Source: Marivita geojedonensis
GTDB lineage: Bacteria > Pseudomonadota > Alphaproteobacteria > Rhodobacterales > Rhodobacteraceae
Length of the DNA: 46,002 nt
Reading direction: 5' to 3'
Assembly: GCF_002115805.1 (NCBI RefSeq)
Contig: NZ_JFKC01000028.1
Span: 1-46,002 of the forward strand
The position numbers were made by a program, and so were the translations under genes. Position 1 is the first letter of the stretch. Every line of letters begins with the position of its first letter. Below, piece after piece: positions 13,060 through 32,654 of the stretch. The notes beneath the pieces were generated by a model. The model saw only the letters and a list, made by a program, of their open reading frames with translations, was not told the origin of the DNA and made no database searches.

Positions 13060-14261
13060 CAGGCTGCTCCTTTTTGTAAGGTCTGCCCGACCACATGCGC
13101 GATAATGTCCGCAACATGCGCGCAATCCTCAAGGCTGAACGTCAATGGAATTCGCATATCAAGCAGTCCGGCAAGTATCGCATCCGTTCTGGGCATTTTC
13201 TGAGCGGGCATGTAGCGCCAACTCTGGTGGTTTGACGTAAATCCAACCGGCTTGGCTGCCCCGAACCACTTGAGTTCGACTCCAAGGGCCCTGACACGCT
13301 CGACGACTTCCCGAATGGTCTCTGCACCGACTTCAGGCATCAGAAACTGGAAAGACGACCCAACATATCTCTCGGCGTCAGGCCGGTGCGGAACGTAAAT
13401 GCCGTTCATCTTGCGCAGGCGATCGGCGATCAGGTCATGTCGCGCGTTCCAGCGGTCAATGTTGGTTTCAAGACCCGCCAACTGTGGAAGCAGGATGGAC
13501 GCGCGCAGATTGTCCATGCGACCAGACATATTGGGCGTGTCCAGACGAATGTCCTCGAACACGTCCGCTGCCGGCCCGGCACCGTGCCGCTCATAGAGCA
13601 TGTACGACCCGGACAACATGATCGCTCGCGCCATGAATTCCGGATCATCAGAGGTCAGAAGCCCCCCTTCACCGCTGTTCATGTGCTTATATGTCTGGGT
13701 GGAGAAACAACCGGCGATACCAAAGCTGCCGGATTTCCTGCCGTTCCATGCAGCGCCCATCGTGTGCGCGCAATCCTCGATCAAAGGCACGTTGTGGCGA
13801 TCGAGAACCGCCATCAGTGCCTCCATGTCACAAAGATGTCCTCGCATGTTCGACAGCAGGAGAACCTTCGGCGCGCTTGCGGCGATCTTTGCTTCAAGAT
13901 CATCCAGATCTAGCACCAGATCAGGTGTAATCTCGACCAGTACGGGTTCTGCGCCAACCCCGGCAATCGCACCAGGCACCGGGGCCAGAGTAAACCCGTT
14001 GGTCAGAACCTTGTCACCGGCACCCACGCCCAGCGCACGCAATGCTGTTGCCATTGCATATCCGCCGGAGGTGCACGCCAGACAGTAAGCCGCCCCCTGA
14101 TATGCTGCATACGCCTTTTCGAGTTCAGCTGCTGCGCCAATCTCACTGCCGGTTGTGTTGTAGCGATGCAGCCGCCCACTGCGCAGCACCTCAACCGCCG
14201 CGCCTATCGCCTCTTCGGCAATAGGCTCCTGCTGGGTAAAGCTGCCGGTGAATGGCTGCAT
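13059..14261 (-). CDS. DegT/DnrJ/EryC1/StrS-type PLP aminotransferase
   Basis: 400 aa, type I aminotransferase fold. The CLACTSGGYAMATALRALGV segment, EDCAHTMGAAWNGRKSG and the PLP-lysine region TQTYKHMNSGEGG are all in family order. Members transfer amino groups, usually to keto-sugars, but some act on small non-sugar ketones or have other roles. No sugar-nucleotide genes are nearby; the neighbours are a racemase and a cysteate-lyase-like enzyme, so a small sulfonated or amino-acid substrate is a reasonable inference. The start MQPFTGSFTQQEPI has GGAG ten bases upstream and lies 7 bases after the stop of the cuyA-like gene. Confidence 0.85.
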   Translation of the reverse strand: MQPFTGSFTQQEPIAEEAIGAAVEVLRSGRLHRYNTTGSEIGAAAELEKAYAAYQGAAYCLACTSGGYAMATALRALGVGAGDKVLTNGFTLAPVPGAIAGVGAEPVLVEITPDLVLDLDDLEAKIAASAPKVLLLSNMRGHLCDMEALMAVLDRHNVPLIEDCAHTMGAAWNGRKSGSFGIAGCFSTQTYKHMNSGEGGLLTSDDPEFMARAIMLSGSYMLYERHGAGPAADVFEDIRLDTPNMSGRMDNLRASILLPQLAGLETNIDRWNARHDLIADRLRKMNGIYVPHRPDAERYVGSSFQFLMPEVGAETIREVVERVRALGVELKWFGAAKPVGFTSNHQSWRYMPAQKMPRTDAILAGLLDMRIPLTFSLEDCAHVADIIAHVVGQTLQKGAA

Positions 14262-14268
14262 CAGGGCA

Positions 14269-15294
14269 TCACTCCGCTGCCATGGTCGGCGCGTCGTAGT
14301 CGAACGCTGCGGTATAGCCAAAAAGCGCGACACCACCGCCCGTATGGACAAAGACGATATTCTCGTCGCCCGCGAACGCACCTTTGCGGATCAGGTCGAT
14401 CAGACCAGCTGCGCCTTTGCCGGAATAGACCGGATCAAGCAGGATGCCTTCAAGACGGGCAAACATTTCGATGGCTGCAAGACCTTCCTTGGTCGGAATG
14501 CCGTAGCCTTCACCGACGTAATCGGTGTTCGCCTCAACATCCTCACGGGACACAACACCGGGGCAACCTAGTTTCTCAGCCGTTTTGACGGCGAGGTTAT
14601 AAACGTTCTCTTCCTGCTTTGGCTTGGGCGCACGCACACCGATGCCCAGCAGCGGGATATTCGCATTGATCGCCTTCAGACCGACCACAAGGCCGGCCTG
14701 CGTGCCTGCGCTCCCGGTCGCGTGCACAATACGGTCGATCTTGAGACCCATGTTATTGGCCTGCGTCACCAATTCCATGGCCGCATTTGCATAGCCCAAC
14801 GCGCCGGTCGGGTTCGATCCACCGCCGGGAATTGTGTAGACGTTGCGCCCTTCCGCGCGGAATTTCTCGGCAACGACCTCCATCGCAGCATTCATGTCCA
14901 AACCGGTGCCCGGACGCTTTTCAGCTGTCGCCCCGTGCAGGAAGTCCAGGAAGACGTTGCCGTTCAGATTGTAGTTCGGATCATTCGACCCGGTGCGATC
15001 CTCAAGCAGGATGTGGCAGTCCATCCCCAGCTTGGCAGCGCAAGCAGCCGTCTGGCGGGCGTGGTTGGACTGTGTTGCACCCTGAGTGATGACGAGATCG
15101 GCACCCTGCGCCTGTGCCTCTGCCATCAGGAATTCGAGCTTGCGGGTCTTGTTTCCGCCGGTCGACATGCCGGTGCAGTCATCCCGCTTGATCCAGATGC
15201 GTGGGCCGCCAAGCTCTTTGGACAAACGGTCCATCGGCTCCAAAGCGGTGGGAAGATGAGCAAGGTTTACGCGGGGGAATCGGGAGAAGTGCAT
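14269..15294 (-). CDS. cuyA: L-cysteate sulfo-lyase-like PLP enzyme (CuyA / D-cysteine desulfhydrase family)
   Basis: 341 aa fold-II PLP enzyme. [21 protein letters not shown] carries the PLP lysine, followed by [29 protein letters not shown] and [13 protein letters not shown]. It matches the D-cysteine desulfhydrase/ACC deaminase family, and as I recall it resembles CuyA of Ruegeria pomeroyi, which converts L-cysteate to pyruvate, sulfite and ammonium. Desulfhydrase activity on D-cysteine is the main alternative. ATG 15294 has AAGGACG upstream. It is the first gene of a six-gene minus-strand run and is divergent from a LysR regulator. No sulfite exporter (cuyZ) or sulfite oxidase is beside it. 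Confidence 0.82.
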
Positions 15295-15370
15295 CAGACG
15301 TCCTTTCGAATGAGTCCCGGTATCAGTTGTGCATGTTACCAGCCTCGTCAAATAGAAAAACTGGCGCTAA

Positions 15371-16292: not shown

Positions 16293-16311
16293 CTCGAAAG
16301 GCTCCGTCCCT

Positions 16312-16647
16312 TCAGCTTTTGCCTCTCACGCGTCGGACCTGTTCCGCGACAGAGGCCCGCAACTCATCCGGCAAACTGTCAATGGCGCGGGCCAGATGAC
16401 TCAGATCTCGCCGCGTTTCGTTCAACCGGTCGATCAATGTCAGCACAACTGGAAGCGCATCCGTTGGAACCTGCATGTCCTTCCTGAGATCACAAAGCAG
16501 CCTGATCCGCGCAACATCAACTTCGTCAAACATCGGCCCCACATCACTCTGCGCCGGTTTGACCCATCCCTCGCGCACCCAGAAACGCAACTCCCTGAGG
16601 GTTACGCGCCGCACCTCGGCAAGCACCCGACGTTCGTCCATACTCAT
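16312..16647 (-). CDS. cbpM: chaperone modulator CbpM-like (MerR-type HTH)
   Basis: 111 aa. A MerR_2-type helix-turn-helix begins the protein (TLRELRFWVREGWVKPAQ). A predicted coiled coil follows (VVLTLIDRLNETRRDLSHLARAI). CbpM proteins bind the J-domain of CbpA and block its co-chaperone action. The gene overlaps the cbpA stop in an ATGA arrangement and has GGAGGC upstream, so the two are translated together, as is usual for this pair. It converges with the LysR gene. Confidence 0.85.
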   Translation of the reverse strand: MSMDERRVLAEVRRVTLRELRFWVREGWVKPAQSDVGPMFDEVDVARIRLLCDLRKDMQVPTDALPVVLTLIDRLNETRRDLSHLARAIDSLPDELRASVAEQVRRVRGKS

Positions 16648-17579
16648 GTTTGCCTCCGCAGGTCTTTTCGCGGGTCGAACCGCGACACCTCACGCCATCG
16701 CTTGGCCAAGTCCTCCAACTCGGACTCAATGACATCCGGCAGAACGACCTTCAGCCGCACAAATTGGTCGCCGGCACCCCCTTTGGCGCGTTGAACACCC
16801 TTCCCCTTGAGACGCAGCCTCCGACCAGAGGACACGCACTTGGGGATGGACATGGAAACCGTGCCTGAGACTGTCGGCACGTCGACTTTGGCACCCAGAA
16901 CAGCCTCGTCCACTGTGATCGGCAGCTCGATTTCGATGTCATCGCCATCGCGGGCAAACACAGGATGTGGACGTACCGCAATTGTAATCAGCGCATCGCC
17001 GGGTGGCCCTTCTCCTATCCCCGCCGAGCCTTTTCCGCGAAGCCGCAGCGTCTGACCGTCCCTGACACCTTTCGGAATCGCGATTTCGATTCCCTTCCCG
17101 TCAGGCATGGTCACGCTGCGTTTGCTTCCAAGCACAGCATCAAGAAAATCGACTGTCAGGTGATATCGAGTGTCTTGACCACGTGCGTTGAAAGACTGCC
17201 ATGCCTCACCTCCTCCGCTGCGATAGCGACGTCCAAAGAGATCTGAGAACACATCCGACATGTCCTCAAACTCATGCGTGCCCCGGCCCGGATCATAACG
17301 TTGCCCGGCGTCCTGCCCTGCGTAGTGGTGGTAATACTGCCGTTCCGGGCGTTGCTGCCCGCTCGCATCAATCTCTCCCGCATCAAAGCGCTTACGCTTC
17401 TCGGGGTCACCCAATAGCTCATAGGCTGCTGAGAGCGCCTGGAATTCGGCCAACTTGGATGAGTCGCCCGGATGGAGATCGGGATGCAGGGTTTTGGCGA
17501 GCTTTCGGTAGGCCTTCTTGATCTCGTCCTGCGTTGCAGATTTCGTGAGCCCAAGGACCTTGTAGGGATCGTCACTCAT
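16644..17579 (-). CDS. cbpA: DnaJ-class co-chaperone CbpA-like
   Basis: 311 aa. The N-terminal J-domain (DPYKVLGLTKSATQDEIKKA) contains the HPD motif (KTLHPDLHPGD) that stimulates DnaK ATPase. A G/F-like linker and two beta-sandwich client-binding domains follow (TVDFLDAVLGSKRSV, then ELPITVDEAVLGAKVDVP). The zinc-finger domain of true DnaJ is absent, which defines the CbpA type. It acts with DnaK in protein folding and is probably restrained by CbpM encoded just downstream. ATG 17579 starts MSDDPYKVLG, the normal family start; the longer frame adds nothing domain-like. Confidence 0.93.
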   Translation of the reverse strand: MSDDPYKVLGLTKSATQDEIKKAYRKLAKTLHPDLHPGDSSKLAEFQALSAAYELLGDPEKRKRFDAGEIDASGQQRPERQYYHHYAGQDAGQRYDPGRGTHEFEDMSDVFSDLFGRRYRSGGGEAWQSFNARGQDTRYHLTVDFLDAVLGSKRSVTMPDGKGIEIAIPKGVRDGQTLRLRGKGSAGIGEGPPGDALITIAVRPHPVFARDGDDIEIELPITVDEAVLGAKVDVPTVSGTVSMSIPKCVSSGRRLRLKGKGVQRAKGGAGDQFVRLKVVLPDVIESELEDLAKRWREVSRFDPRKDLRRQT

Positions 17580-17812
17580 CCGATGTTCACCCCAAAATGC
17601 TAAATGCGCAGTCAACTCCACCAACAGCACGGGGCTGCGGTGCCAAGATACCCCTCACATCACCATCGCTTCGATTCGTAGGACAGATGCCCGAACTCGG
17701 CCTTGAGTCAGATCAATACTCGCCTTTGCGAGATCGAGACACACGTCAAGCACATCGAGCCATCGCGCACGCACACAACAGCGCATAAAAACAATAATCA
17801 GTTGTATGGGGA
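17580..17812. other. non-coding gap between cbpA and the island border
   Basis: 233 bases without a convincing gene. It should contain the cbpA promoter on the minus strand, but I see no clear sigma-70 or heat-shock sites. Toward its right end the DNA becomes A/T-rich (AAAAACAATAATCA) just before the island repeat. Confidence 0.5.
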
Positions 17813-17828
17813 ATGGTGCCCAGGAGAG
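17813..17828. repeat. left attachment-site repeat
   Basis: ATGGTGCCCAGGAGAG is identical to 32639-32654, the 3' end of tRNA-Leu with its CCA. It is a displaced tRNA fragment left by integration and marks the left border of the island. Confidence 0.92.
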
Positions 17829-17971: not shown

Positions 17972-19165
17972 ATGCGCGCCCAGAACAGACTTTCGGCTCA
18001 ATTCATCAAACATGCCCCTGTCGGCAAGCATTGCGATGGTGCGGGTCTGTGGCTGGTAAAACGTGACGACGGCGGGGCGCAGTGGGTGTTACGCGTCACC
18101 GTTTACGGTAGACGCAAAGAAATGGGTTTGGGTGGGTTCCCAACTGTGTCCTTGGCCGAAGCCCGCAAATTGCGAGACCGCTGGAGAAAGGTAGCGGCGG
18201 CAGGTCGCAATCCCATAAGAGAACGGGAAGCCGAACGGCGCGCCGCGCGGCGCGAAGACATTTCGCTTGCCGTTATCACGGCTGATGCGTTTGAAGCCCG
18301 AAAAGCAGAATTGAAGGGCGATGGCGCGGCTGGGCGATGGCTGTCACCTCTAACCCTTCACGTCTTGCCCAAACTGGGCCGTGTTCCCGTGACTGAACTA
18401 GACCAGCGCGACATTCGCGACACGCTGGCCCCCATCTGGCACACGAAAGCCGACACGGCGCGCAAAGCCATGAACCGTCTTTCTATCGTCCTGCGTCATG
18501 CGGCGGCGCTGGGCTTGGATGTGGATTTGCAGGCAACCGAGAAAGCCAAGGCTCTGTTGGGCAAGTCGCGCCACAAGCCGAAAAACATCCCGGCGATGGA
18601 TTGGCGCGATGTGCCTGACTTCTATGCAAGCCTCGAAGAACCGACACTGACCCATCTGGCGCTGCGCCTTCTCATTCTGACCGGCGTGCGTTCTGGGCCG
18701 CTGCGGAACTTGCGGCTTGAGCAAATCGACGGTGACATTTGGACCATCCCTGCTGACGCCATGAAGGGGCGAAAGGGCGCAACTGAGGACTTCCGTGTGC
18801 CCCTGTCAGATGAAGCGAAACGCGTGATTGATCTAGCGCGTCCGCACGCCCGCAACGGCTATCTGTTTCCGAACACGCGTGGCGGCGTGATTAGCGACAT
18901 GACGCTGTCACGGCACATGGAACGGCGGGGGCTAAAAGCGCGCCCGCATGGGTTTCGCACCAGCCTGCGCACATGGCTGGCCGAAGCCACTGACGCCCCG
19001 CACGAAGTCGCAGAAGCGATGTTGGCGCATGTTGTGGATGGCGGTGTGGTGCGGGCCTATCGGCGGACAGATTACCTCGAACAGCGTGCCACGCTAGCCG
19101 AGCGCTGGGCCGACTTTTTGAACGGCGGTGCTGGGCAGGTGGTGACGTTGGCGGGAAATGGGTGA
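17972..19165 (+). CDS. int: tyrosine-type site-specific integrase (P4-like)
   Basis: 397 aa. The N-terminus is the arm-binding DUF4102-like domain (GLWLVKRDDGGAQWVLRV, then MGLGGFPTVSLAEARKLRD). A SAM-like core-binding domain is centred near residues 90-180. The catalytic domain shows LTGVRSGPLRNLRL (Arg I), HGFRTSLRTW (His-X-X-Arg), MLAHVV (His) and the tyrosine region VRAYRRTDYLEQR. It should insert and, with a directionality factor, excise the island at tRNA-Leu. Its stop overlaps the next gene (GTGA). It lies 143 bases inside the left repeat, at the end far from the tRNA gene. Confidence 0.93.
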   Translation: MRAQNRLSAQFIKHAPVGKHCDGAGLWLVKRDDGGAQWVLRVTVYGRRKEMGLGGFPTVSLAEARKLRDRWRKVAAAGRNPIREREAERRAARREDISLAVITADAFEARKAELKGDGAAGRWLSPLTLHVLPKLGRVPVTELDQRDIRDTLAPIWHTKADTARKAMNRLSIVLRHAAALGLDVDLQATEKAKALLGKSRHKPKNIPAMDWRDVPDFYASLEEPTLTHLALRLLILTGVRSGPLRNLRLEQIDGDIWTIPADAMKGRKGATEDFRVPLSDEAKRVIDLARPHARNGYLFPNTRGGVISDMTLSRHMERRGLKARPHGFRTSLRTWLAEATDAPHEVAEAMLAHVVDGGVVRAYRRTDYLEQRATLAERWADFLNGGAGQVVTLAGNG

Positions 19166-20004
19166 AGATGCGAGGAAATGGTTTACCCAAATCGTTGCCG
19201 GTTTCGGCCATAATTGCAGCGTTTAATTTAAGAAACTCTGAAGTTTCTGAGTCACTGAACGCTGCCCTCGCTCGTGCCCAAATTGATGAATGGGGCGGGA
19301 CACACCGCCCCTTGGACTGGGCCAGAAATTTTTTCGAAACCGCATACCAACCGAACCCAGTAACCGGTGCGGCATCTTTTGTTGGCATTCCGAAATCAAT
19401 CCAAAGCCTTCTTTTGCACTTTGCCGCTGAAACGGAACTCGCCGTGAACGGCCAAATCTCGGAGGGCATAGGGTCAGAAATTGCGCATTGGGCAGCAACT
19501 GACTTTGACACATTCACGATGGCGCAAATGATGGTGATAGAGGCTGCAACTGGGAAGCCTCGACTGCCTGCGTCGCTCCATAACCTTACCAAGAAAATTG
19601 CTTCTGGCACGACCGCGCCCCAGAAAAGAGGGGACCGCTCTTGGAAGCTTTCCAACCGCAATCGAATTGGCATTGCTGCGCTAAACGTGCTGACTAATGA
19701 AGCAGGTTTCGACTTAACGCCGACACGAAGTGTAGCGAGCAGCGGTGTGTCGGCCTGCGACATCCTTGCGGAAGCGGCGAGCGGCTTTGGATGGGCGAGT
19801 ATTACAGCCGCTGGTGCTGATGAGATTTGGCGCAATCGGGAGCGTTGGACTCTCGAGTGGCACTTGTGCCTTGCGCTGGGTGCATTCATGACCGGCGAAG
19901 AAAAAGGATTGCCTACTGAATTTACCTTACGGGCACTTAGGTGGTTGAAAGCCGTACCGTCGGGGCGAAAAGGCAAAAACCAACCCGATGAGCCGACAGC
20001 CTGA
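19162..20004 (+). CDS. island protein of unknown function, coupled to the integrase
   Basis: 280 aa. The GTG start at 19162 overlaps the integrase stop as GTGA; ATG 19168 is an alternative two codons later. No signal peptide and no clear membrane spans. The middle is helical (SIQSLLLHFAAETELAV, TMAQMMVIEAATG). The segment SNRNRIGIAALNVLTNEAGFDLTPTRS could be a small-molecule or DNA-contact region, but I can name no domain. The C-terminus is basic (GRKGKNQ). Tight coupling to int suggests a role in integration or its control, or an accessory cargo gene. Unrecognised. Confidence 0.75.
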   Translation: MKMRGNGLPKSLPVSAIIAAFNLRNSEVSESLNAALARAQIDEWGGTHRPLDWARNFFETAYQPNPVTGAASFVGIPKSIQSLLLHFAAETELAVNGQISEGIGSEIAHWAATDFDTFTMAQMMVIEAATGKPRLPASLHNLTKKIASGTTAPQKRGDRSWKLSNRNRIGIAALNVLTNEAGFDLTPTRSVASSGVSACDILAEAASGFGWASITAAGADEIWRNRERWTLEWHLCLALGAFMTGEEKGLPTEFTLRALRWLKAVPSGRKGKNQPDEPTA

Positions 20005-20049: not shown

Positions 20050-20232
20050 ATGGAAAACTACCTCACTTTGAATGAACTGCGCGCCAAGCTGGGCAATCGC
20101 TCACGCTCTGCGATTTATGGCGACTTGGCCGCGGGCCGTTTGCCGCAGCCCATCAAACTGGGTGGCCGTATTTACTGGGCTGAAGCCGACGTTGACACCC
20201 ATCTGCGTAATCTAAGCGGGGAGGCAGCGTAA
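20050..20232 (+). CDS. AlpA-like helix-turn-helix regulator / excisionase
   Basis: 60 aa. LTLNELRAKLGNRSRSAIYGDLAAGRLPQPIKLGGRIYWAEADVDTHL matches the AlpA/Phage_AlpA MerR-type fold: a first helix, the recognition helix with SRSAIY, then the LPxPIKLGGRxYW wing. AlpA proteins activate island integrases or act as excision directionality factors. AAAGGAC lies upstream of ATG 20050. It begins the second gene block of the island and is the best candidate to control excision. Confidence 0.88.
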   Translation: MENYLTLNELRAKLGNRSRSAIYGDLAAGRLPQPIKLGGRIYWAEADVDTHLRNLSGEAA

Positions 20233-20237
20233 AAAAA

Positions 20238-20420
20238 ATGATCGACCAGAGAGCAAACCCCGGCGCAGCGGCAACTGCGACCGGGGCGGATAGCAAATTT
20301 GAAGCTGAAAAACCTCTCACGCAGAATACGCCTCAAATCGTTTTTTTCGCAAGCTTCTATTGGGATCGGCGGTCTGGCTCGGTCGAGCGCCTCCGCAGCT
20401 TTGCGGGGATCGCGACATGA
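20238..20420 (+). CDS. possible small island protein upstream of the TOPRIM gene
   Basis: 60 aa, no recognised family. It is supported by a strong GGGGAGG ribosome site about 13 bases upstream of ATG 20238 and by an ATGA overlap with the TOPRIM gene start at 20417. The product is polar at the N-terminus (MIDQRANPGAAATA) and has an aromatic patch (IVFFASFYW). It may be a real peptide, or only a leader whose translation primes the next gene. Low confidence because of its size and lack of homology. Confidence 0.4.
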   Translation: MIDQRANPGAAATATGADSKFEAEKPLTQNTPQIVFFASFYWDRRSGSVERLRSFAGIAT

Positions 20421-21298
20421 AGGACATTTTTCAGGCTAGCCCGATAAAACGCCCTCGCGCCACCAAGGCCGACATGGAAGCGCGAGCGCAATTTCTAATA
20501 GAATATGCAGAAGAGCATGGTCCCGTCACTGTGCGGGGTTTGTTCTACGCGGCCACCGTCGCAGGCGTTCCCGGCATCGAAAAGACCGATGCAGGATATA
20601 ACAAGGTGCAGACTCAAGTGCTGAAATTGCGCCGAGAGGGCAAAATGCCCTACGGGGTAATCTCCGATGGCACACGCTACATGCGCCGACCCCGTACTTA
20701 TGACGGCTGGACAGAGGCGCTTCGCACAACTGCCGAGGCGTATCGCAAAAGCCTGTGGACAAATCACCCGGAGCAAGTCGAAATCTGGATTGAGAAGTCC
20801 GCGCTCTCAGGAGTTATCTTTCCCGTGACGGCTGAGTATGAAGTGCCGCTCATGCCAACCGGTGGCTACGTTTCCGAAACATTTGCTCACGATGCCGTCG
20901 AGAACATGCGCGGCACCGGCCAGCGTCTAGTGGTCTATTCGCTCTATGACTTCGACCGCAGCGGACGGGATGCTGAGGCTTCCTTGAAAGAGAAGGTCGA
21001 GCGGTTCGGGCGTAAGTATGGTGTCCCGGTCAGCTTCGAACCTTTGGCCCTGACCTACGCGCAAGTGAAGGCGCTGGATCTTCCTACCCGCCCCGCCAAG
21101 CGCAAGACAGCCGCAGACCAGCGGTGGACCTATCCCTTCGCGGCTGAACTAGACGCGATACCGCCTGACAAGCTGCGCGACATGGTTCGCGGCGCGATTG
21201 AGCGTCACTTGCCAGCATCCGAACTCGAACATCTCAAGATGATTGAGCAGGCCGAGCGCAACACGATGTTGCAATTCATCGGGGAAGCATCGTTATGA
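20417..21298 (+). CDS. Spo11/TopoVI-A-like winged-helix plus TOPRIM protein
   Basis: 293 aa. The N-terminal half resembles the 5Y-CAP winged helix of Topo VI-A/Spo11: GPVTVRGLFYAATVAG has R40 and Y44 in the arrangement of the V-R-D-I-F-Y catalytic motif. The TOPRIM part shows E126 (IWIEKSALSG) and the DxD pair D178/D180 (YSLYDFDRSGRD), the metal-binding acidic residues. All expected catalytic positions are therefore present. Type IIB topoisomerases need an ATPase B subunit, and none is visible here, so it resembles the B-less 'Mini-A' type I recall from mobile elements. It may nick or cleave island DNA during replication or excision. It overlaps both neighbours by ATGA. Confidence 0.75.
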   Translation: MKDIFQASPIKRPRATKADMEARAQFLIEYAEEHGPVTVRGLFYAATVAGVPGIEKTDAGYNKVQTQVLKLRREGKMPYGVISDGTRYMRRPRTYDGWTEALRTTAEAYRKSLWTNHPEQVEIWIEKSALSGVIFPVTAEYEVPLMPTGGYVSETFAHDAVENMRGTGQRLVVYSLYDFDRSGRDAEASLKEKVERFGRKYGVPVSFEPLALTYAQVKALDLPTRPAKRKTAADQRWTYPFAAELDAIPPDKLRDMVRGAIERHLPASELEHLKMIEQAERNTMLQFIGEASL

Positions 21299-21684
21299 GC
21301 GTTTCTCAGCACATCCCCCCCGATATCAAGAAGGTTGCGCGCTGTGTTGGTTACGCTGCGTGGCTGCATACAGTCGATGCATGGCTTGGCTTGCCGGTTG
21401 TTCTGGAGGCGCGTCTTGCACCGCACAAACGCGCTGCACTGGCCCACGCGACGTTGCGCTCCCTCTGCAATGAACACGTCGAGGCGGTCTGCGCGTCCGT
21501 CTTGCCGCAGAATGCAGGACAGCCGCAGGCAGCCTTCTCGGGTATCATGGACCAAGCCGCGTTCTGGGCCGATTTGGCAACTCAGGATGAGCGTGACGCG
21601 TACATGCTGGCGTCTTTCAACCGGTCGCCGGAAACCCGTCAAGCAGCCTTCCTTGAATTCGTGCAGCGGAGGGCGGCGGCATGA
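21295..21684 (+). CDS. unknown protein between TOPRIM and RepA-like genes
   Basis: 129 aa, mostly helical, cytoplasmic. It has Cys residues at VARCVGYAAW, LRSLCNEH and VEAVCASV with no clear metal-site spacing. Starts in an ATGA overlap with the TOPRIM gene and ends in an ATGA overlap with the RepA-like gene, so it is translated in step with both. That position suggests a partner of one of them in DNA processing. I recognise no family. Confidence 0.75.
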   Translation: MSVSQHIPPDIKKVARCVGYAAWLHTVDAWLGLPVVLEARLAPHKRAALAHATLRSLCNEHVEAVCASVLPQNAGQPQAAFSGIMDQAAFWADLATQDERDAYMLASFNRSPETRQAAFLEFVQRRAAA

Positions 21685-22823
21685 TGCGCGATTTTGACGA
21701 TATGGACCACCAGGACCAAGCGCACCGAGCCGAGCATCCCAAGGCGCATGACGAACGTGCCAAGGCCGGCGAGAAGTCGCGCTTCTATTGCGCTGCTACG
21801 CTTAAGGGAGCGCCTGTACCGCCGCGTGAGTGGCTTGTGCATGACCTTATCCCTCAAAACACCGTCACGTTGTTCGGCGGCGACGGCGGCACAGGCAAGA
21901 GCCTGCTGGCCTTGCAGCTGGCCGTTGCCGTTGCCACCGGGCGCGAGTGGATTGGTAAGGCCGTTCCCAAGGGCAATGTTATCTTTATCAGTGCGGAGGA
22001 TGACGACGCAGAATTGCATCGCCGCCTTGATAACATTCTGAGAGCCGAGGGCCGGACCTACGACGACTTGTCGGGCCTGATCCTGCGTTCCTTGGCTGGC
22101 GAAGACGCGCTTCTCGCCGTTGATACACAAGTTAAATTGATGGCGTCCGAACTGTTCAAAGAACTCGATGCCCGTGCTGCGGATGAAGTTCCGCTGCTAA
22201 TCGGTATCGACACTCTGGCTGATGTCTATCCGGCAAACGAAAACGACCGGGCCAAAGTCCGCCAGTTTATCGGCATCCTGCGCGGTCTCGCGCTCAAGAG
22301 ACAATGTGCCGTCGTTTTGCTTGGCCATCCGTCCCTGACGGGGATCTCGAGCGGCACCGGCACATCCGGGTCGACCGCTTGGAATAACTCTGTGCGATCC
22401 CGTTTGTACCTGTCGCGGATCAAGGACGGGTCGTTCGAGGCCGATCCTGACCGCCGTGTGCTGACGACGATGAAGGCCAACTACGGCCGCATTGGCGGTG
22501 AAACGCATGTCAAATGGAAGGCTGGTGTCTTTGTCCTCGAGCCGAGCGAGGGAGGCATGGACAAAATGGCAGCCGGGGCCAAAGCGCAACGCGTGTTCAC
22601 GAAATTGCTGGATACCTTCACGGCACAAGGGCGACGCGTGAACCATGCGGGCGGGACCACGTACGCACCAAAGGTATTCGCGGAACATCCTGACTCCGAA
22701 GGCATGACCAAGAAGGCATTGAAGACGGCGATGGAGGGTCTGCTTGCGGCGAAAAAAATCAAGATTGAAACCGAAGGACCGCCATCGAAGCGGCGCTCAT
22801 TTCTGGCGAGGGCCGACCAATGA
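21681..22823 (+). CDS. RepA-like AAA ATPase (replicative-helicase type)
   Basis: 380 aa. A RecA-like ATPase core contains Walker A GGDGGTGKSLLALQ, a Walker B-like LLIGIDTLADV (about residue 175), and a sensor/motif region VVLLGHPSLTGISSGTGTSGSTAW. This order resembles RepA of RSF1010-type plasmids and AAA_25 proteins of islands, which load or act as hexameric helicases. The C-terminal ~100 residues form a basic winged-helix-like region (KKALKTAMEGLLAAKKIKIETEG). It implies that the element can replicate after excision or uses its own helicase. Coupled by ATGA overlaps at both ends. Confidence 0.82.
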   Translation: MMRDFDDMDHQDQAHRAEHPKAHDERAKAGEKSRFYCAATLKGAPVPPREWLVHDLIPQNTVTLFGGDGGTGKSLLALQLAVAVATGREWIGKAVPKGNVIFISAEDDDAELHRRLDNILRAEGRTYDDLSGLILRSLAGEDALLAVDTQVKLMASELFKELDARAADEVPLLIGIDTLADVYPANENDRAKVRQFIGILRGLALKRQCAVVLLGHPSLTGISSGTGTSGSTAWNNSVRSRLYLSRIKDGSFEADPDRRVLTTMKANYGRIGGETHVKWKAGVFVLEPSEGGMDKMAAGAKAQRVFTKLLDTFTAQGRRVNHAGGTTYAPKVFAEHPDSEGMTKKALKTAMEGLLAAKKIKIETEGPPSKRRSFLARADQ

Positions 22824-23053
22824 TTGACCTTCCAACCCCATTCCAACCCGACCCTCCAACCCCTTCCAACCTAGGGCCCAACCCCTTGCCTACCCCCGTT
22901 CCAACCCCTGTGTTCCACTATCCCCATACCCCTAAGGGACTGCGCATCCCCCTAGGCGGGGCTGCGCATCCTATCCCAAGCCGCATACCGTTCGGCGCGG
23001 CCAGCGCTCGCGAAGCGGAATTCAATAATTTGGTGTTCAGAAATGACCCGTAA
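22820..23053 (+). CDS. possible Pro-rich small protein over CCAACCC repeats
   Basis: 77 aa, very Pro-rich (PTPFQPDPPTPSNLGPNPLP). The ATGA overlap with the RepA-like stop and the 11-base overlap with the next gene favour translation. Against this, the Pro-rich part is a by-product of repeated CCAACCC DNA, so the stretch may be cis-acting DNA that happens to stay open. No domain is visible. Confidence 0.4.
   Translation: MIDLPTPFQPDPPTPSNLGPNPLPTPVPTPVFHYPHTPKGLRIPLGGAAHPIPSRIPFGAASAREAEFNNLVFRNDP
22830..22908. repeat. six CCAACC(C) repeats after the RepA-like gene
   Basis: (T)TCCAACCC-type units occur at 22830, 22841, 22855, 22864, 22877 (CCCAACCCC) and 22899, all in the same orientation, spaced 9-22 bases apart. 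They lie directly after the RepA-like gene. Clustered short direct repeats there could be iterons for replication initiation. Low-complexity coding sequence is the alternative. Confidence 0.55.
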
Positions 23054-23492
23054 AAACCGCTCAAATACGGAAGGTCGTAGCCCTGACGGCACATTCGCTC
23101 CCGGCAATCCCGGCAAGCCGAAGGGCGCGCGCCACAAAGCCACACAGGCCGCACTGGCGCTGTTGGACGGCGAAGCTAACGCACTGACCCGCAAAGCGGT
23201 TGAACTGGCTTTGGAGGGCGACACAACGGCTCTGAGGCTTTGTCTAGAGCGTATTGCACCGCCTCGCAAAGATGCTCCGGTGACCTTTGATCTGCCACGA
23301 ATGAGATCAGCGGAAGACGCTGCAAAAGCGGCAGGCTCGGTTCTTGATGCTGTTGCGTCTGGAGGCCTAACCCCGACCGAAGGCGCTCACATTATGGCCT
23401 TGGTGGAAAGCTATCGGCGGACACTGGAGACGGCTCAGTTGGAGGGTCGACTTGACGCGCTTGAGAAAGCACTTGGGAGGCATGATTGGTGA
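23043..23492 (+). CDS. DUF5681-domain protein
   Basis: 149 aa. The N-terminus SPDGTFAPGNPGKPKGARHKAT matches the DUF5681 signature found in phage and island proteins, often near packaging or replication genes. A helical region follows (ALALLDGEANALTRKAVELALEGDTTALRLCLERIAPP), then a coiled-coil tail. It is probably DNA-associated, judging by the basic Gly/Pro N-terminus. It overlaps the previous small gene by 11 bases and the next gene by GTGA. Function is unknown. Confidence 0.8.
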   Translation: MTRKNRSNTEGRSPDGTFAPGNPGKPKGARHKATQAALALLDGEANALTRKAVELALEGDTTALRLCLERIAPPRKDAPVTFDLPRMRSAEDAAKAAGSVLDAVASGGLTPTEGAHIMALVESYRRTLETAQLEGRLDALEKALGRHDW

Positions 23493-23953
23493 AAAAGATA
23501 TCGCAGAAGGTCTACGCGACATTAACACCGACACAACGCGTAGCCGCGTATGTTGAGGCTCTCGCCCGCGGCGACGAAGACGAAGTGCAACGCTTGAGGA
23601 GTAGTTGCCCCAGAGTTGAGTACCGCCGAATTGACCCGCGCTTCACAATAAGACTCGACACGTTGTTTGCTCTGGCAATGGCGACCGAGGCTGATCTCAA
23701 AGAAAGCGCACTAGGTTTCTTCGTCGCGATGCGGTTGGATCCAACGAAGGCAAGAGATTATCTGCAGCAGTTTGCGAATACACGCCATGCTTGGCAGACC
23801 ATCCTATCCACCTTTGGAGTGGACGCAAAGGCCATGCAATCGGTTGGACCGCCCTCAAGCCCATTTTTCGAGTTCATCGACCCATTGATCCCGAAACCCG
23901 ACGAAGAAGCCTCCAGAAAACTCTCAAGTGAAATGCTCAGGTTTCTCGACTGA
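23489..23953 (+). CDS. unknown island protein following DUF5681
   Basis: 154 aa from GTG 23489, chosen because GGGAGG lies eight bases upstream and it makes a GTGA overlap with the previous stop. The product is helical: LTPTQRVAAYVEALARGDEDEVQRL, a possible regulatory or partner-binding helix bundle, then LFALAMATEADLKESALGFFVAM. No motif that I can name. It ends the plus-strand gene chain that starts at 20050 and converges with hsdS. Confidence 0.75.
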   Translation: MKKISQKVYATLTPTQRVAAYVEALARGDEDEVQRLRSSCPRVEYRRIDPRFTIRLDTLFALAMATEADLKESALGFFVAMRLDPTKARDYLQQFANTRHAWQTILSTFGVDAKAMQSVGPPSSPFFEFIDPLIPKPDEEASRKLSSEMLRFLD

Positions 23954-24067: not shown

Positions 24068-25804
24068 TCACTCAGCGGTCTCTTGGATAGATGCAGTGGG
24101 CTCCAGCGCCTCCTGGAGCAAGGCTTCGAGGAGGCGGGTGCGGGTGGTGTCGGCGTTGGTCAGGGAAGCCTCCAGCCGGTCGCAGAGGGCCATGAGGGCG
24201 TCGACCTTGGCCACGATACGGTGTTGCTCGGCGAGAGGCGGCAGAGGTATCAGGACCGTCTCAAGAATACCCAGATTGATATTCTTCTGCGCGGTTGCTG
24301 GAGCAAATTCCAACAGGTTCGCCTTCGCCGTCCTGATGAAATACTCGAAGTATCTCGCGTTATCGAACATTGATGCTGGAACGAGGCCAACCACGCTGTC
24401 TGGAAAACAGGCATCGAAGTCCAAAATGCCACTATCGGCGATATTCGCGGCAATCGTGATGCACATAGTGCCACGCGGCCAGAGCATGCTCTGCGCCAAA
24501 CCGACTTCATTATAGAAGCCGGTATTGGACGTGATCCGACCACCTGACCTTGCGACGTCTCCGGTCTGAATGAATGGAATCTCTCCATCCCTGTAAAGTG
24601 CGGGATCGTTTCGTGGTCTGTGTTGGGATTTACCACGACCGAAAGTCCCAAGTTCCGGAAATCTGGCCCAAGCCCAACCAAACGGCAGATCGAAAGGTGC
24701 CAATGTCATATCTACAGGTGGGAGCGGTTTAGGCCTTTTGAACTTTCCAGCTTTTGCCAGTTCATTTTGCTCTACCGCTATTGCTTCCAGCAACTCCGAT
24801 GCCGGTTCATCTTCCGCCTCCTGCTCCACCAGCTTCCCACGAACCGCGAGGTTGAGGATGTTTTGGCGGAGGGACTTGATTTGGTCGGAGCGCGTGGTGA
24901 GTGCGGGGAGGGCTTCGAGGGCGAAGCGGGCGTGGGTGGGGAAGTCCTCGGGCGTGGTGTCGGGGCCGGTCAGGCGGGCAAGGCTGGCGGCGGTGAGCTT
25001 GTCGCGCACTTCCTCCCGCGTCTTGCGGGCATCCTCCAGCCGATCACAGAGCGCCATAAGTTCATCGACCTTGGCGACGATCCTGTGCTGTTCAGCGAGA
25101 GGGGGAAGCGGGACGGTTAGCTGCCTTACCTTATCTGCGTTCAGATTCTGAACAACGGCGCCTGATGCTGCCTCCGCAAACGAACGCTTGGCGTGCGCCG
25201 ATAGGAACAACGCGTGGAGGAATAGTTTGCTGATGAGTTTCTCAGGCGTCCGAATGACCAGCCAACCATCGTGAATACAACCTTCAACATTCGTGATGTA
25301 TGGGAAGCCAAAACTCATCGAGTTGGATAGAAGCAAATCCCCCGGAACTACGAGTCGAGACTTCGCAAGACCCTCTGGCTTAATGCGTTCTACGGTGCTG
25401 TCGATGTATATACTGCCACGATTTGAATCGCCGATTTTGATCCATGGAATTCCATTCGGGTCGTCCGTCAAATATGATTTGATTGGGCGGGGCGAACCGC
25501 CTCGTGCAACGGCAGCTAAATCATCCAAATAGCACCAATGCCAGTTCGCGGGGAGTTGGAACGCAAATTCTTCCTGCTTCCTTTCAAATGTCCCCTCATA
25601 CTGCTTGAACCTGCCGTCACGGACAATTTGCGATTTCTCTACCTCGATCCGCTTCAGAAGCTGTGTCGCTGGTTCATCCCCCGCGTCCTGCTCCACCAGC
25701 TTCCCACGCACCGCCAAATCCAACACGAACAGCCGCAGACGCGCGATTGCATTCGGCGCTTCGCTGATCTTCTCGTAGACCTCCAGCAACCGTTCGGCGT
25801 TCAT
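24068..25804 (-). CDS. hsdS: type I restriction-modification specificity subunit HsdS
   Basis: 578 aa. Two target-recognition domains, each opening near a LPxxWxW motif (LPANWHWCYL, LPFGWAWARF), alternate with conserved helical regions. Both halves carry the paired motifs LAVRGKLVEQ and LPPLAEQHRIVAKVD, with LMALCDRLE after the latter. HsdS reads a split DNA sequence and positions HsdM and HsdR on it. Each TRD reads one half-site; the two differ, so the target is asymmetric and cannot be told from sequence. The start ATG 25804 overlaps the hsdM stop as ATGA. A 22-base direct DNA repeat (24820-24841 and 25687-25708) encodes part of the duplicated motif. Confidence 0.94.
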   Translation of the reverse strand: MNAERLLEVYEKISEAPNAIARLRLFVLDLAVRGKLVEQDAGDEPATQLLKRIEVEKSQIVRDGRFKQYEGTFERKQEEFAFQLPANWHWCYLDDLAAVARGGSPRPIKSYLTDDPNGIPWIKIGDSNRGSIYIDSTVERIKPEGLAKSRLVVPGDLLLSNSMSFGFPYITNVEGCIHDGWLVIRTPEKLISKLFLHALFLSAHAKRSFAEAASGAVVQNLNADKVRQLTVPLPPLAEQHRIVAKVDELMALCDRLEDARKTREEVRDKLTAASLARLTGPDTTPEDFPTHARFALEALPALTTRSDQIKSLRQNILNLAVRGKLVEQEAEDEPASELLEAIAVEQNELAKAGKFKRPKPLPPVDMTLAPFDLPFGWAWARFPELGTFGRGKSQHRPRNDPALYRDGEIPFIQTGDVARSGGRITSNTGFYNEVGLAQSMLWPRGTMCITIAANIADSGILDFDACFPDSVVGLVPASMFDNARYFEYFIRTAKANLLEFAPATAQKNINLGILETVLIPLPPLAEQHRIVAKVDALMALCDRLEASLTNADTTRTRLLEALLQEALEPTASIQETAE

Positions 25805-27249
25805 CGGGCCAACGCTTCGGTCAGGATGGATTTCAGTTCGGCGCGGAGGCTCTCGACCGAAGATTCGGCCTTGGTCAGGTCGCCCAACAGGGTCTCGGGG
25901 TCGCCCCAATCCTCTTCGACCACATGCGGGTTCTTGATGTCTAGATTGAAGCCGCAGTCGCGGATCTCGTCGATCGACACCTTCCAGGCGCGCTCGTTTT
26001 CATCGCGCCCTTCGCGGTTCGGACCTCCCCACCATGCGGCGCAGTCGTCCAGATGCTCCAGCCGGATCGGCTTGGTCATGGAATAGGCTTTCTGCGTCTC
26101 GGGCACGCGGTGTTCCCAATACCAGATGTCCTGCGTGGGCGTGCCTTTCTCAAAGAACAGCAGATTGGTGCCGATGGAGGCATAGGGTTTGAAGACCGAG
26201 TTCGGCAGCCGCACGATGGTGTGCAGGTTGCATTCCTCCAACAGGTGTTCCTTGAGCCGGGTCTTGATGCCTTCGCCAAAGAGAGAGCCATCGGGCAGCA
26301 CCACAGCGGCGCGGCCCTTGTCCTTGAGCAGACGGATGATCAGGGCGAGGAACAGATCGGCGGTTTCCCGGGTGCGGAAGGTGGGGAAGTTGTTCTCGAT
26401 CCCGTCCTCTTCCTTTCCGCCGAAGGGAGGGTTGGTCAGGATGATGTCCACCTTGTCCGCCTGCCCCCAACTGACCAGCGGACGCGCAAGCGTGTTGTCG
26501 TGGCGCACCCAGGACGGCTCCTCGACCCCGTGCAGCAGCATGTTGGTTACGCAGAGCATGTGAGGCAGGGGTTTCTTTTCCACCGCGCGCAGGGAGGATT
26601 GCATTAGCGCGTCATCCTCAGGGCTTTTGATGTGGTTGTCCCGCATGTGGCGCATCGCGCAGGTCAGGAAGCCGCCCGTGCCGCAGGCCGGGTCCATGAG
26701 GATTTCACCGGGCTTCGGGTCTATCTGCCGGACCATGAAGGCAGTGACTGCGCGGGGCGTGTAGTATTCACCTGCGTTGCCCGCGTTCTGCAGGTCGTTC
26801 AGCAGCTGTTCGTAGATGTCACCGAAGTGTTGGCGCTCAGACAGGTTGTTGAAATCGACCTCGTTGATCTTGTTGATCACCTGCCGCATCAGCTGGCCGG
26901 ATTTCATGTAGTTGTAGGCATCCTCGAAGACGTCGCGGACGACCTTGGCGCGCGGGCCAATTTGCGGTGAGAGGAGCTTGAGACGCGGGAACAACTCATC
27001 ATTGACGAAATCCAGCAGGGTGTCGCCGGTGATGCCTTCGGGATCCGCCGCCCATGTGCGCCATTGCAGGTCTTCGGGTATGGGGGACGTGTAGTCATCC
27101 TGTGTGATTTCCAGCGCTTCGTCCTGATCGTCCATGATCTTGAGGAAGAACATCCACACCAATTGCGACATACGCTGCGCGTCCCCGTCGACGCCGGTAT
27201 CCTTGCGCATGATGCCTTGGATCGATTTGACGAGGTTGCGGACGGACAT
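25801..27249 (-). CDS. hsdM: type I restriction-modification methyltransferase HsdM
   Basis: 482 aa N6-adenine methyltransferase. The N-terminal helical domain (LVKSIQGIMRKDTGVDGDAQRMSQLVW) precedes the SAM-binding motif ILMDPACGTGGFLTCA and the catalytic IILTNPPFGGKEED (NPPF). With HsdS it protects host DNA; with HsdR it forms the restriction complex. Operon order is hsdR, hsdM, hsdS. The stop overlaps hsdS by ATGA, and the start lies 3 bases after hsdR. Confidence 0.96.
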   Translation of the reverse strand: MSVRNLVKSIQGIMRKDTGVDGDAQRMSQLVWMFFLKIMDDQDEALEITQDDYTSPIPEDLQWRTWAADPEGITGDTLLDFVNDELFPRLKLLSPQIGPRAKVVRDVFEDAYNYMKSGQLMRQVINKINEVDFNNLSERQHFGDIYEQLLNDLQNAGNAGEYYTPRAVTAFMVRQIDPKPGEILMDPACGTGGFLTCAMRHMRDNHIKSPEDDALMQSSLRAVEKKPLPHMLCVTNMLLHGVEEPSWVRHDNTLARPLVSWGQADKVDIILTNPPFGGKEEDGIENNFPTFRTRETADLFLALIIRLLKDKGRAAVVLPDGSLFGEGIKTRLKEHLLEECNLHTIVRLPNSVFKPYASIGTNLLFFEKGTPTQDIWYWEHRVPETQKAYSMTKPIRLEHLDDCAAWWGGPNREGRDENERAWKVSIDEIRDCGFNLDIKNPHVVEEDWGDPETLLGDLTKAESSVESLRAELKSILTEALAR

Positions 27250-27252
27250 GGG

Positions 27253-29703
27253 TTACGCACTTTCCTCATATAGCGCCGCCTGCATTTCATGCACGGCGCG
27301 GATGTAGTCGGGTTTCTTGCCGAAAGCGCGGATCAGTTCAACCTCGGTGCCCATGCCGGAGAAGGGGTTGATTTTCAGGATCTTGGGGTCGTCGATGCTG
27401 ATGACGCCATCATCCGAGTATTTCTGCAGCAAAGCTTCCAACACCGCGCGGGCCTGTGGGCCGTATTTTGTAAAGACATCGCGCTTGCGAACATTCTCGG
27501 CTCGCTCTTTGCGCGTTAGAGGCTTTGCGTCAAAGGCGATGTGGCAGATCAGATCGAACGGGTCGAGATCCAGCCCAAGTTCATTGGCAATCACGTCAAG
27601 CGGCAGCCCTTCTTCAGCCAGTTCCTCTATCAGCGCGTGCTTGCGGTCCGTTTGCCTCCAGCGACGCAGGAAATCATCGAGACTGGTGAACCGCTGGCGC
27701 ATCGCTTTTCGGGTGTAGTCGCGCAAGGACTCGGTGACCAGCCGACCGTTTTCATCCAAGTATTCAACCCGTTCCGCCACGATGTCAGCACCAACGCCAT
27801 CAATGTAGACCTTGACCCGCGGACCCGTGTTTGGGTTGTTGAACAGGTCTTGGTTTCTGGGATCGATCAGAACGGTCTCGTTTTCGTCAACTTGTTTTGA
27901 GATGGAGGCGTCGTCACTGCCGGGCGTTTCATCTGGCGGGTTTACCGGATCGTCCGGGCCGGGCTGGTAGATTTGAACTGGCTCGCCGTCGAAATCGGGG
28001 TCGGCGAAATGACTTGAGGCGCCACGGAAATCCATCAGAGTAAAGAACAGTTTGCGTGTGTCTTCATGCACCCGCGTGCCGCGCCCGACGATCTGCTTGA
28101 ACTCCGTCATGGAGCCGACCTCGCGATCAAGCACGATCAGGCGGCAGGTCTGAGCATCGACACCGGTCGATAGAAGCTTCGAGGTCGTGACGATGACTGG
28201 ATAGTCGGCTTCAGGATCGATGAAATTCCCGAGCTGATCAATCCCTTCCTTGTCATTTCCTGTGATCCGCATCACGTATCGCGCGTTCTTTGCGACGAGG
28301 TCTGCGTTCTCGTTGATGAGCGCCTGCCGCATGCGTGCAGCGTGTTCCTGATCCACGCAGAACACGATTGTCTTGGCCATCGGGTCACCGCTTTCGCGCA
28401 GGAACTCGCTGACCTTTTTCGCGACAAGTTTCGTTCGATCATCAAGAACCAGCGTGCGGTCGAAATCCTTGGCGTTGTAGAGGCGATCTTCGACCTCTTC
28501 TCCATCGCGATCCAGCTGACCTTTCTCAGGCCGGTAGCCCTGCACGTCGCGGTCGATATGGACCTTGATGACTTTGTACGGGGCAAGAAAGCCGTCTCTG
28601 ATGCCCTGTTTGAGCGTATAGCTGTAAACAGGCGGACCGAAATAATCGATGTTCGACGCGTATTCAGTTTCCTTAGGCGTGGCCGTCAAACCGATTTGCA
28701 CGGCCGACGAGAAATGATCGAGGATCTCCCGCCAAGCTGAGTCCGCTGACGCGCTGCCGCGGTGACATTCGTCTATGATGATCAAATCGAAGAAGTCTTT
28801 TGAAAACTCTCTGTAGATTTTCTGGCTGTCTTTGGGGCCCGTGATCGCCTGATAGAGACCAAGGTAAATCTCATAGGAGGAGTCGATCCGGCGCTTACTG
28901 TCCATGGCCAGCGTGACGCTTTCCTTGCTGCCGTCGGGTCTTTCGATGGTCTTCGATTGCGTTGAAAGCTTTGCCATCTTGCCACTGAACGGCCTGAAAT
29001 CATTGACCATGGTCTGATCGATTAGAACGTTGCGGTCCGCGAGAAACAGCACGCGCTTGCCGGGGAATGCTTGCCGGAACCGCCATATGATCTGAAACGC
29101 CGTGTACGTCTTTCCAGTCCCAGTGGCCATGACCAGCAGCACGCGGTCTTGGCCTTTGGCGATCGCCTCCATCGTCTTGTTGATGGCGTTGACTTGGTAG
29201 TAACGCGGCTCTTTGCCGGACCCATCGTCATGGTAGTCTTGCAGAGCAACCTTTGCCTCAGCGTTAGTCAGACCTTTCCAAGCCTTGTACCGCTGCCTGA
29301 GGTCCTGCGGACTCGGAAACTCATCCAAGCCTAAGTTTTGTTCAATCTCAGACGATGCTCCGGTGCGGTCGTGAAACACAAACCCATCCCCGTTTGACGA
29401 GAACACGAATGGGATGTCCAAGGTTTCTGCATAATCCAGCGCTTGTTGCATGCCGCCGCCAACAGGCTGCTTGTTGTCTTTCGCCTCTATGATGGCGATG
29501 GGAATGTTAGGCTTTACGGACAAGACATAGTCGGCACGTTTACCCTCACCTCGACTCACCATTTTGCCGCGAACGATGATCCGACCTTTGGTGAAGCTGA
29601 CCTCTTCGCGGACTTGATCCGCGATGTTCCAGCCTGCGGAGACAAGGGCAGGTGTAATGAACTTCGAGCATATATCACGTTCACTCAGGCTACGCTTGTT
29701 CAT
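27253..29703 (-). CDS. hsdR: type I restriction endonuclease subunit HsdR
   Basis: 816 aa. The N-terminal nuclease has the PD-(D/E)xK core as RADYVLSVKPNIPIAIIEAKD. Then the SF2 motor: motif I LLVMATGTGKTYTAF, motif II LIIIDECHRGS, a SAT-type LTATP, and motif VI region IVGRGTRVHEDTRKLF. A C-terminal helical region binds HsdM. It translocates DNA and cuts at distant sites when the target is unmethylated. Length fits EcoEI/type IB-like HsdR. First gene of the hsdRMS operon, with its promoter presumably in the 335-base gap upstream. Confidence 0.95.
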   Translation of the reverse strand: MNKRSLSERDICSKFITPALVSAGWNIADQVREEVSFTKGRIIVRGKMVSRGEGKRADYVLSVKPNIPIAIIEAKDNKQPVGGGMQQALDYAETLDIPFVFSSNGDGFVFHDRTGASSEIEQNLGLDEFPSPQDLRQRYKAWKGLTNAEAKVALQDYHDDGSGKEPRYYQVNAINKTMEAIAKGQDRVLLVMATGTGKTYTAFQIIWRFRQAFPGKRVLFLADRNVLIDQTMVNDFRPFSGKMAKLSTQSKTIERPDGSKESVTLAMDSKRRIDSSYEIYLGLYQAITGPKDSQKIYREFSKDFFDLIIIDECHRGSASADSAWREILDHFSSAVQIGLTATPKETEYASNIDYFGPPVYSYTLKQGIRDGFLAPYKVIKVHIDRDVQGYRPEKGQLDRDGEEVEDRLYNAKDFDRTLVLDDRTKLVAKKVSEFLRESGDPMAKTIVFCVDQEHAARMRQALINENADLVAKNARYVMRITGNDKEGIDQLGNFIDPEADYPVIVTTSKLLSTGVDAQTCRLIVLDREVGSMTEFKQIVGRGTRVHEDTRKLFFTLMDFRGASSHFADPDFDGEPVQIYQPGPDDPVNPPDETPGSDDASISKQVDENETVLIDPRNQDLFNNPNTGPRVKVYIDGVGADIVAERVEYLDENGRLVTESLRDYTRKAMRQRFTSLDDFLRRWRQTDRKHALIEELAEEGLPLDVIANELGLDLDPFDLICHIAFDAKPLTRKERAENVRKRDVFTKYGPQARAVLEALLQKYSDDGVISIDDPKILKINPFSGMGTEVELIRAFGKKPDYIRAVHEMQAALYEESA

Positions 29704-31345: not shown

Positions 31346-31351
31346 TTTTCT

Positions 31352-32585: not shown

Positions 32586-32638
32586 AAACAACACCAATTC
32601 CAATAAAGCATTAATGATCAATTGCTTAATGTGGAATT

Positions 32639-32654
32639 ATGGTGCCCAGGAGAG
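32639..32654. repeat. right attachment-site repeat within tRNA-Leu
   Basis: ATGGTGCCCAGGAGAG, identical to 17813-17828. It covers the CCA end and acceptor 3' strand of tRNA-Leu. The strand exchange point lies within this repeat. Confidence 0.92.

Follow-up and report, generated by a model that had tools for sequence, protein, structure and literature searches.

What does a Spo11-like protein do in a bacterial genomic island that lacks the partner subunit of topoisomerase VI? This question is raised by a 46,002-nucleotide stretch of Marivita geojedonensis DNA (contig NZ_JFKC01000028.1, the whole of which is called the window here), in which a 14.8-kb element at a tRNA-Leu gene, at about 17.8-32.65 kb of the window, carries an open reading frame (ORF) of 293 aa at 20417-21298 on the forward strand. 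We found that this ORF encodes a member of the Mini-A family, shortened relatives of topoisomerase VI subunit A (topo VI-A) and of Spo11, the enzyme with which meiotic recombination begins.

The protein matched PHROG 6247, ‘DNA topoisomerase’, over residues 18-287 (2e-38). Furthermore, tblastn searches found homology to a protein of phage NP1 among phage records (2e-24) and, among plasmid records, to a protein annotated ‘Topo Mini-A’ of LC711082, an 8776-bp circular archaeal plasmid (6e-15). The phage NP1 protein serves to exemplify Mini-A in the legend to Figure 4 of a review (PMC7614492), and the family is described in excerpts of PMC7614492, PMC8185306 and PMC11302465. The predicted structure (mean predicted local distance difference test 92) combines a winged helix with a TOPRIM domain, and a Foldseek search of the model against the PDB returned six matches below 0.001, all six of them topo VI-A. 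The initial annotation, made from the letters alone, had proposed a Spo11/topo VI-A-like fold of this architecture and membership of the Mini-A family, and both proposals are borne out. Other searches were less telling: Pfam, NCBIfam and PADLOC gave no name to the protein, which does not match Pfam TP6A_N (PF04406), phmmer with the single sequence against the PDB gave chance matches only, and a BFVD fold search named no topo VI-A relative. Profile searches against the PDB ranked 1d3y first, weakly (E 0.48, 0.23 and 0.41).

The catalytic residues Y44 (in VRGLFY), E126, D178 and D180 are located where the initial annotation had placed them. All four are invariant in alignments of 18, 59 and 31 sequences, which overlap and the last of which takes in an archaeal plasmid protein, and the conservation of these residues is for this reason beyond chance; mean column identity is 37% in the 59-protein and 35% in the 31-protein alignment. 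In a profile-profile comparison with five topo VI-A sequences, E126, D178 and D180 fall on the topo VI-A E, D and D (pairwise E 7e-5, HH probability 63); the Mini-A profile against one single topo VI-A sequence gave an HH probability of 1.3. When the N-terminal part was aligned alone, Y44 fell on the tyrosine of the topo VI-A R-x3-Y motif, as the initial annotation had supposed, with a score of 19.4 (p 0.013, HH probability only 3) that was reached by none of 300 column shuffles (highest 18.7).

The same annotation had reported that the ATPase B subunit is absent, and the wider searches agree. Topo VI-B (PF09239) gave no match in the window's own genome, the same search being positive in 4 of 14 control genomes, and GHKL ATPase (PF02518) gave none in 37 Mini-A records, of which 6 are named phages or plasmids and 31, possibly fragments, come from IMG/VR, nor in the 293-aa protein itself. 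In contrast, a plasmid with a true topo VI-A gave 11 GHKL matches, one of which is the adjoining VI-B. In a sample of the phylum, one genome of 398 carried TP6A_N (L198, 790-3134; L numbers denote loci); its topo VI-A is 54% identical to the M. jannaschii fragment, and the adjoining ORF, 404 aa or longer, may be topo VI-B, going by position alone.

The neighbours of Mini-A were surveyed in 19 loci, namely the window and 18 others, some of which ended early at contig ends. A replication-type gene adjoins Mini-A in 11 of them, with one small gene between in the window. This gene is of the AAA_25 type in the window, L026 and L029, Prim-Pol in L001 and L023, D5-type in L022 and L030, a DUF7146/Toprim_3 primase in L024, L032 and L033, and DUF3631 in L035 (L029, L030, L033 and L035 assigned by cluster). 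Because these neighbours are of several unrelated kinds, RepA is not a specific partner of Mini-A, and the particular tie to RepA that the initial annotation expected is not found: a Prim-Pol, D5-type, DUF7146/Toprim_3 or DUF3631 neighbour is seen as often as AAA_25. Mini-A thus associates with replication modules and not with a single replication protein. At the remaining loci, Mini-A is followed in L028 by a weak helix-turn-helix match and a methyltransferase, the contigs of L034 and L036 stop at or near Mini-A, and no gene adjoining Mini-A could be named in L025, L031 and L037.

In the window, Mini-A lies in a replication gene chain of the island, the initial annotation having placed it in an island gene chain. 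After an AlpA-like gene come Mini-A, a small gene without known function (orf129, 21295-21684, forward strand) and a RepA-like AAA_25 ATPase (21681-22823, forward strand; Pfam AAA_25 1.8e-34, with matches to phage primase/helicase PHROGs), all within the att-bounded element. Mini-A and orf129 overlap by ATGA, as do orf129 and repA; therefore the translational coupling to RepA that had been proposed passes through a third gene. Homologues of orf129 adjoin Mini-A in L022, L026 and L047 as well, which makes orf129 a candidate partner of Mini-A. The gene is downstream of Mini-A in the window and upstream in those three loci.

Directly 3′ of repA, six copies of CCAACC, five of them TCCAACC, lie within 75 bp (22831-22906, forward strand). 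In 100 dinucleotide shuffles of the window we found at most 3 CCAACC per 100 bp, and eight window tiles outside the island held at most 3 spaced 7-mers each. Among 31 Mini-A loci, clusters of at least four spaced 7-mers lie downstream of Mini-A in 10 and upstream in 2, and the downstream clusters exceed their own 20 shuffles in 9 of the 10 (L051 was equalled by shuffles); some of the upstream stretches in this count are shorter than 3.5 kb and the shuffles cover the downstream side only, which tells against the comparison. The repeats downstream of Mini-A and repA are suggestive, rather than proof, of a candidate origin. They may instead be coding, because a 77-aa proline-rich ORF (22820-23053), which overlaps the repA stop by ATGA and extends into the DUF5681 gene, spans them. 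No iteron motif is common to all elements compared. Arrays of CGTCACC/GGTGACG in mixed orientation lie downstream of Mini-A in L024, L031 and L046, where the Mini-A proteins are widely different; those of L031 and L046 are closely alike, and the three are possibly a common origin type.

The identity, fold and conserved residues of Mini-A, the absence of B, the island setting and the recurrent replication neighbours all come from direct analysis. With the usual partner absent and replication genes adjoining, they suggest that the island Mini-A nicks or cuts DNA during replication. Because Mini-A keeps the SPO11 residues and has no B partner, we consider, at somewhat better than even confidence, that it most likely takes part in replication of the element by nicking DNA, or by breaking and resealing it, without the need for ATP. 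Mouse SPO11 alone, as a dimer that takes the tyrosine from one subunit and the metal ligands from the other, cleaves and nicks DNA and can reseal nicks, according to an excerpt of PMC11922746. Under this hypothesis, the integrase and the AlpA-like protein would first excise the island. Mini-A would work as a homodimer with a shared active site, one subunit contributing Tyr44 and its partner the TOPRIM metal site (E126, D178, D180), and would make ATP-independent, 5′-tyrosyl-linked nicks or paired breaks in the island DNA, which it may also reseal. In this way it could provide RepA-driven replication with a nicking or swivel activity, with a presumed target site near the iteron-like repeats and a timing that we likewise infer.

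Several observations weigh against a replication enzyme of the topo VI-A type. The six topo VI-A matches of the model have TM-scores of just 0.35-0.37 on the query and whole-chain root-mean-square deviations of 7-18 Å; the winged helix (N-domain) alone gave no Foldseek match below 0.001, and its best Z of 8.0 (1d3y) is equalled by other winged helices. Eight of the 19 loci have no recognised replication gene beside Mini-A. In L027, Mini-A is followed by unnamed ORFs, a terminase and a capsid gene, so that the next recognised gene is the terminase, as it also is in L046, and in L038 the next recognised gene is an integrase (by cluster). Furthermore, excerpts of the reviews PMC8185306 and PMC7614492 report archaeal Mini-A as uncharacterised and the activity of topo VIII as faint or weak.

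Mini-A might itself be the replication initiator, nicking the origin, staying on the 5′ end and leaving a 3′-OH primer like HUH Rep proteins, with RepA as the helicase. Topo VI-A chemistry leaves a 3′-OH, and two small plasmids speak for this idea. In LC711082, Mini-A is the sole recognisable enzyme, because none of the 15 other coding sequences (CDS) has a Pfam match above cut-off, and in a 15-kb Paenibacillus plasmid no Rep family was found among the 15 of 28 other CDS put to Pfam, those named being a Zot/AAA-type ATPase and a MerR/DUF3967 protein. However, a protein of 427 aa in LC711082 and one of 519 aa in the Paenibacillus plasmid, both unknown and neither with a PDB match by phmmer at E 0.1, could be unrecognised Reps, and 13 of the 28 Paenibacillus CDS lie outside the scan. 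Moreover, most relatives with a named neighbour have a primase, helicase or RepA of their own, and in phage PaMx25 Mini-A sits between the genes for a DNA ligase and a RecA-type ATPase. We see an initiator role as unlikely. Also unlikely is the broader proposal that Mini-A proteins form a class of their own among nickases that initiate replication. They would then be Spo11-type tyrosine/TOPRIM enzymes that open an iteron origin and leave a 3′-OH primer, acting by themselves in minimal plasmids, LC711082 for example, and together with exchangeable helicases or primases in satellites and phages. The PaMx25 neighbours, with a RecB-type exonuclease nearby, and the terminase genes of L027 and L046 would fit an enzyme that, instead of acting at forks, introduces double-strand breaks or cleaves replication intermediates so that the element can recombine or be packaged, much as Spo11 initiates meiotic recombination, but with a replication-type neighbour in the window and 10 further loci of the 19, and no recognised recombinase besides the integrase in the window island, this is quite improbable.

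The remaining readings fare worse. That Mini-A is cargo, a nuclease directed against phages or plasmids in the manner of Wadjet JetD/MksG, which share its fold, is very doubtful: with PADLOC, none of Mini-A, orf129 and RepA was matched, the Pfam scan of island proteins turned up no SMC, kleisin or kite partner, and lytic phages carry Mini-A. A part in island excision, which the initial annotation had allowed beside replication, or in integration would see Mini-A assist the integrase, a homologue of which lies within about 7 kb of Mini-A in 13 of the 19 loci. We found no evidence for it; the island has its own tyrosine integrase and AlpA-like gene, while lytic phages and free plasmids, which have no need of excision, carry Mini-A too, and we hold such a part to be the least probable of all. 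Lastly, Mini-A could have lost catalysis and merely bind DNA, as the excerpts of the literature surveyed, a survey outside which the founding Mini-A paper falls, gave no measured Mini-A activity; the invariance of all four catalytic residues in 59 and 31 proteins of such low mean identity makes this very improbable. A nicking or break-and-reseal role in replication is the reading we retain. Accordingly, the observation in the initial annotation is confirmed and its interpretation is partly supported, being right in the identity of the protein and in its leaning to replication.

The island is bounded by a 16-nt att repeat at 17813-17828 (forward strand) and its exact direct copy at 32639-32654 (forward strand), which lies inside the 3′ end of tRNA-Leu(CAG) (32640-32726, reverse strand); the 14-nt att core has just two copies in the window, with up to 1 mismatch allowed, where 0.01 are expected. 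From the left, all on the forward strand, follow a tyrosine integrase (17972-19165; Pfam Arm-DNA-bind_3, Phage_int_M and Phage_integrase; phrog_1), a 280-aa protein without known function or a Pfam, PHROG or NCBIfam match (19162-20004) and the AlpA-like excisionase/regulator of 60 aa (20050-20232; Phage_AlpA 21.6 bits for a cut-off of 21; phrog_66). Beyond the replication genes lie a DUF5681 protein (23043-23492, forward strand; Pfam 33 bits, cut-off 27.5) and a 155-aa protein without known function (23486-23953, forward strand) that has nothing above cut-off in Pfam, PHROG or NCBIfam. Type I restriction-modification cargo occupies 24068-29703 on the reverse strand (hsdS 24068-25909, hsdM 25801-27249, hsdR 27253-29703), and further cargo genes lie at 30039-31801 on the forward strand: a TIGR04255 protein (30039-30842), orf173 (30824-31345) and orf149b (31352-31801), the last two scanned with NCBIfam and PADLOC (orf173 also with PHROGs), not Pfam. 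The orf173 product matches the C-terminal region of PDC-M32A, which PADLOC lists as candidate defence proteins (7e-12), and its gene adjoins that of the TIGR04255 protein, the two being possibly a defence pair. No virion genes were recognised in the island, and no plasmid record covers 80% of it; its restriction genes match a Paracoccus plasmid.

Loci of the same genus agree with the right boundary. Of 11 genomes that match the right flank of the window over a long stretch, 9 supplied a locus; in all 9 loci, alignment to the window begins at 32632-32640 and continues to the right, and in the 8 that have a left flank no window sequence leftward of that point aligns. For the left flank of the window (16300-17640), only short matches were obtained, in 3 of 8 sibling genomes and away from this site, the other 5 having none, while 12316-15360 has matches in 5 of 5 siblings, likewise in other locations. 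Because left-flank sequence matches the siblings only briefly or at other places, no clean empty site was found among the sibling genomes compared. At the tRNA-Leu(CAG) 3′ end (window 32640), flanks are common to only two pairs, L183/L187 and L184/L188, among the 8 sibling loci with a left flank, and the site looks like an integration hotspot.

Mini-A relatives were found by tblastn in 70 of 50,697 phage records, some of the 70 being duplicate GenBank/RefSeq entries, and in 30 of 72,556 plasmid records, so that carriers include lytic phages and free plasmids. Whole genomes gave 6 of 385 in the same class and 14 of 394 in the same family, the window's own being counted in both; the best named relative is from Roseivivax. 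The phage PaMx25 homologue had 597 relatives in IMG/VR, 80 of which were retained. Two Mini-A phages, PaMx25 (L041) and Pam3 (L043), carry annotated DNA-modification-type genes (QueE/QueC; aGPT-Pplase and Nmad5); there might be a link to these phages requiring DNA enzymes of their own. In phage PDS1 (L044), the annotation covers Mini-A (5959-6845) with two ORFs that overlap, named ‘DNA topoisomerase’ and ‘DNA primase’, which reflects either a frameshift or a genuine division of the gene.

With an integrase, an AlpA-like gene, a replication module, att repeats at a host site, a size of about 15 kb and no recognised virion genes, the window island fits the features of phage-inducible chromosomal islands (PICIs), and a satellite-like, tRNA-integrated element is the best reading of its gene content. 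L046, a whole 10.6-kb IMG/VR contig, encodes in order an integrase, an unknown protein, Mini-A, terminase, HNH, major head, protease, an unknown protein and portal, with no tail families among the 10 of 13 ORFs compared with PHROGs, namely all but Mini-A and two small ORFs on the minus strand, and its AlpA-like ORF clusters with that of the window. L047 carries Mini-A, a RepA-type ATPase, a head-tail adaptor, terminase, HNH, major head and portal. Both layouts resemble capsid-forming PICIs, and both contigs could be phage fragments.

The Mini-A family is already published; what is added here is a genomic setting that makes a replication role testable. Excerpts of the reviews report no established Mini-A activity, yet a single Mini-A type is as abundant in IMG/VR as noted above. 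Should Mini-A prove to act in replication, this would show that the nuclease module of Spo11 and topo VI-A can function in bacteria in the absence of a B subunit, with a bearing on the way in which Spo11 became a nuclease. In the small islands and the 8.8-kb plasmid, a single point mutation would be enough to test the replication role.

Among known systems, topoisomerase VI differs from Mini-A, which has neither a PF09239 match in its genome nor a TP6A_N match, true topo VI-A elsewhere adjoining VI-B. Mini-A shares with topo VI-A and Spo11 the fold and the register of the catalytic Tyr, Glu and DxD, but is shorter and has neither a B subunit nor a Pfam TP6A_N match. Topo VIII, described in an excerpt of PMC7614492 as a type IIB relative on plasmids and integrated elements, is likewise type IIB-related and set in mobile elements. 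It joins A-type and B-type parts, and differs in that no B (GHKL) part was found in the 293-aa window protein nor in the 37 Mini-A records. JetD/MksG of Wadjet and MksBEFG differ by their SMC-type partner genes, no SMC, kleisin or kite match being found among the neighbours of Mini-A scanned (10 proteins with Pfam, 10 with PADLOC). The island resembles PICIs in its tRNA site, att repeats, integrase, AlpA-like gene, replication module and repeats 3′ of the Rep gene, and its relative L046 resembles capsid-forming PICIs in having head genes without recognised tail genes; the island differs in carrying Mini-A. The founding Mini-A paper is said to be that of Takahashi et al. 2020 (NAR Genom Bioinform 2:lqz021), in which a C-terminal motif reportedly separates topo VI, topo VIII and Mini-A. 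Like the published Mini-A proteins, that of the window has about 300 aa, a topo VI-A-like winged helix and TOPRIM, no B subunit and a location in a mobile element, whereas its own setting is an island without recognised virion genes that carries restriction cargo and an AAA_25 RepA.
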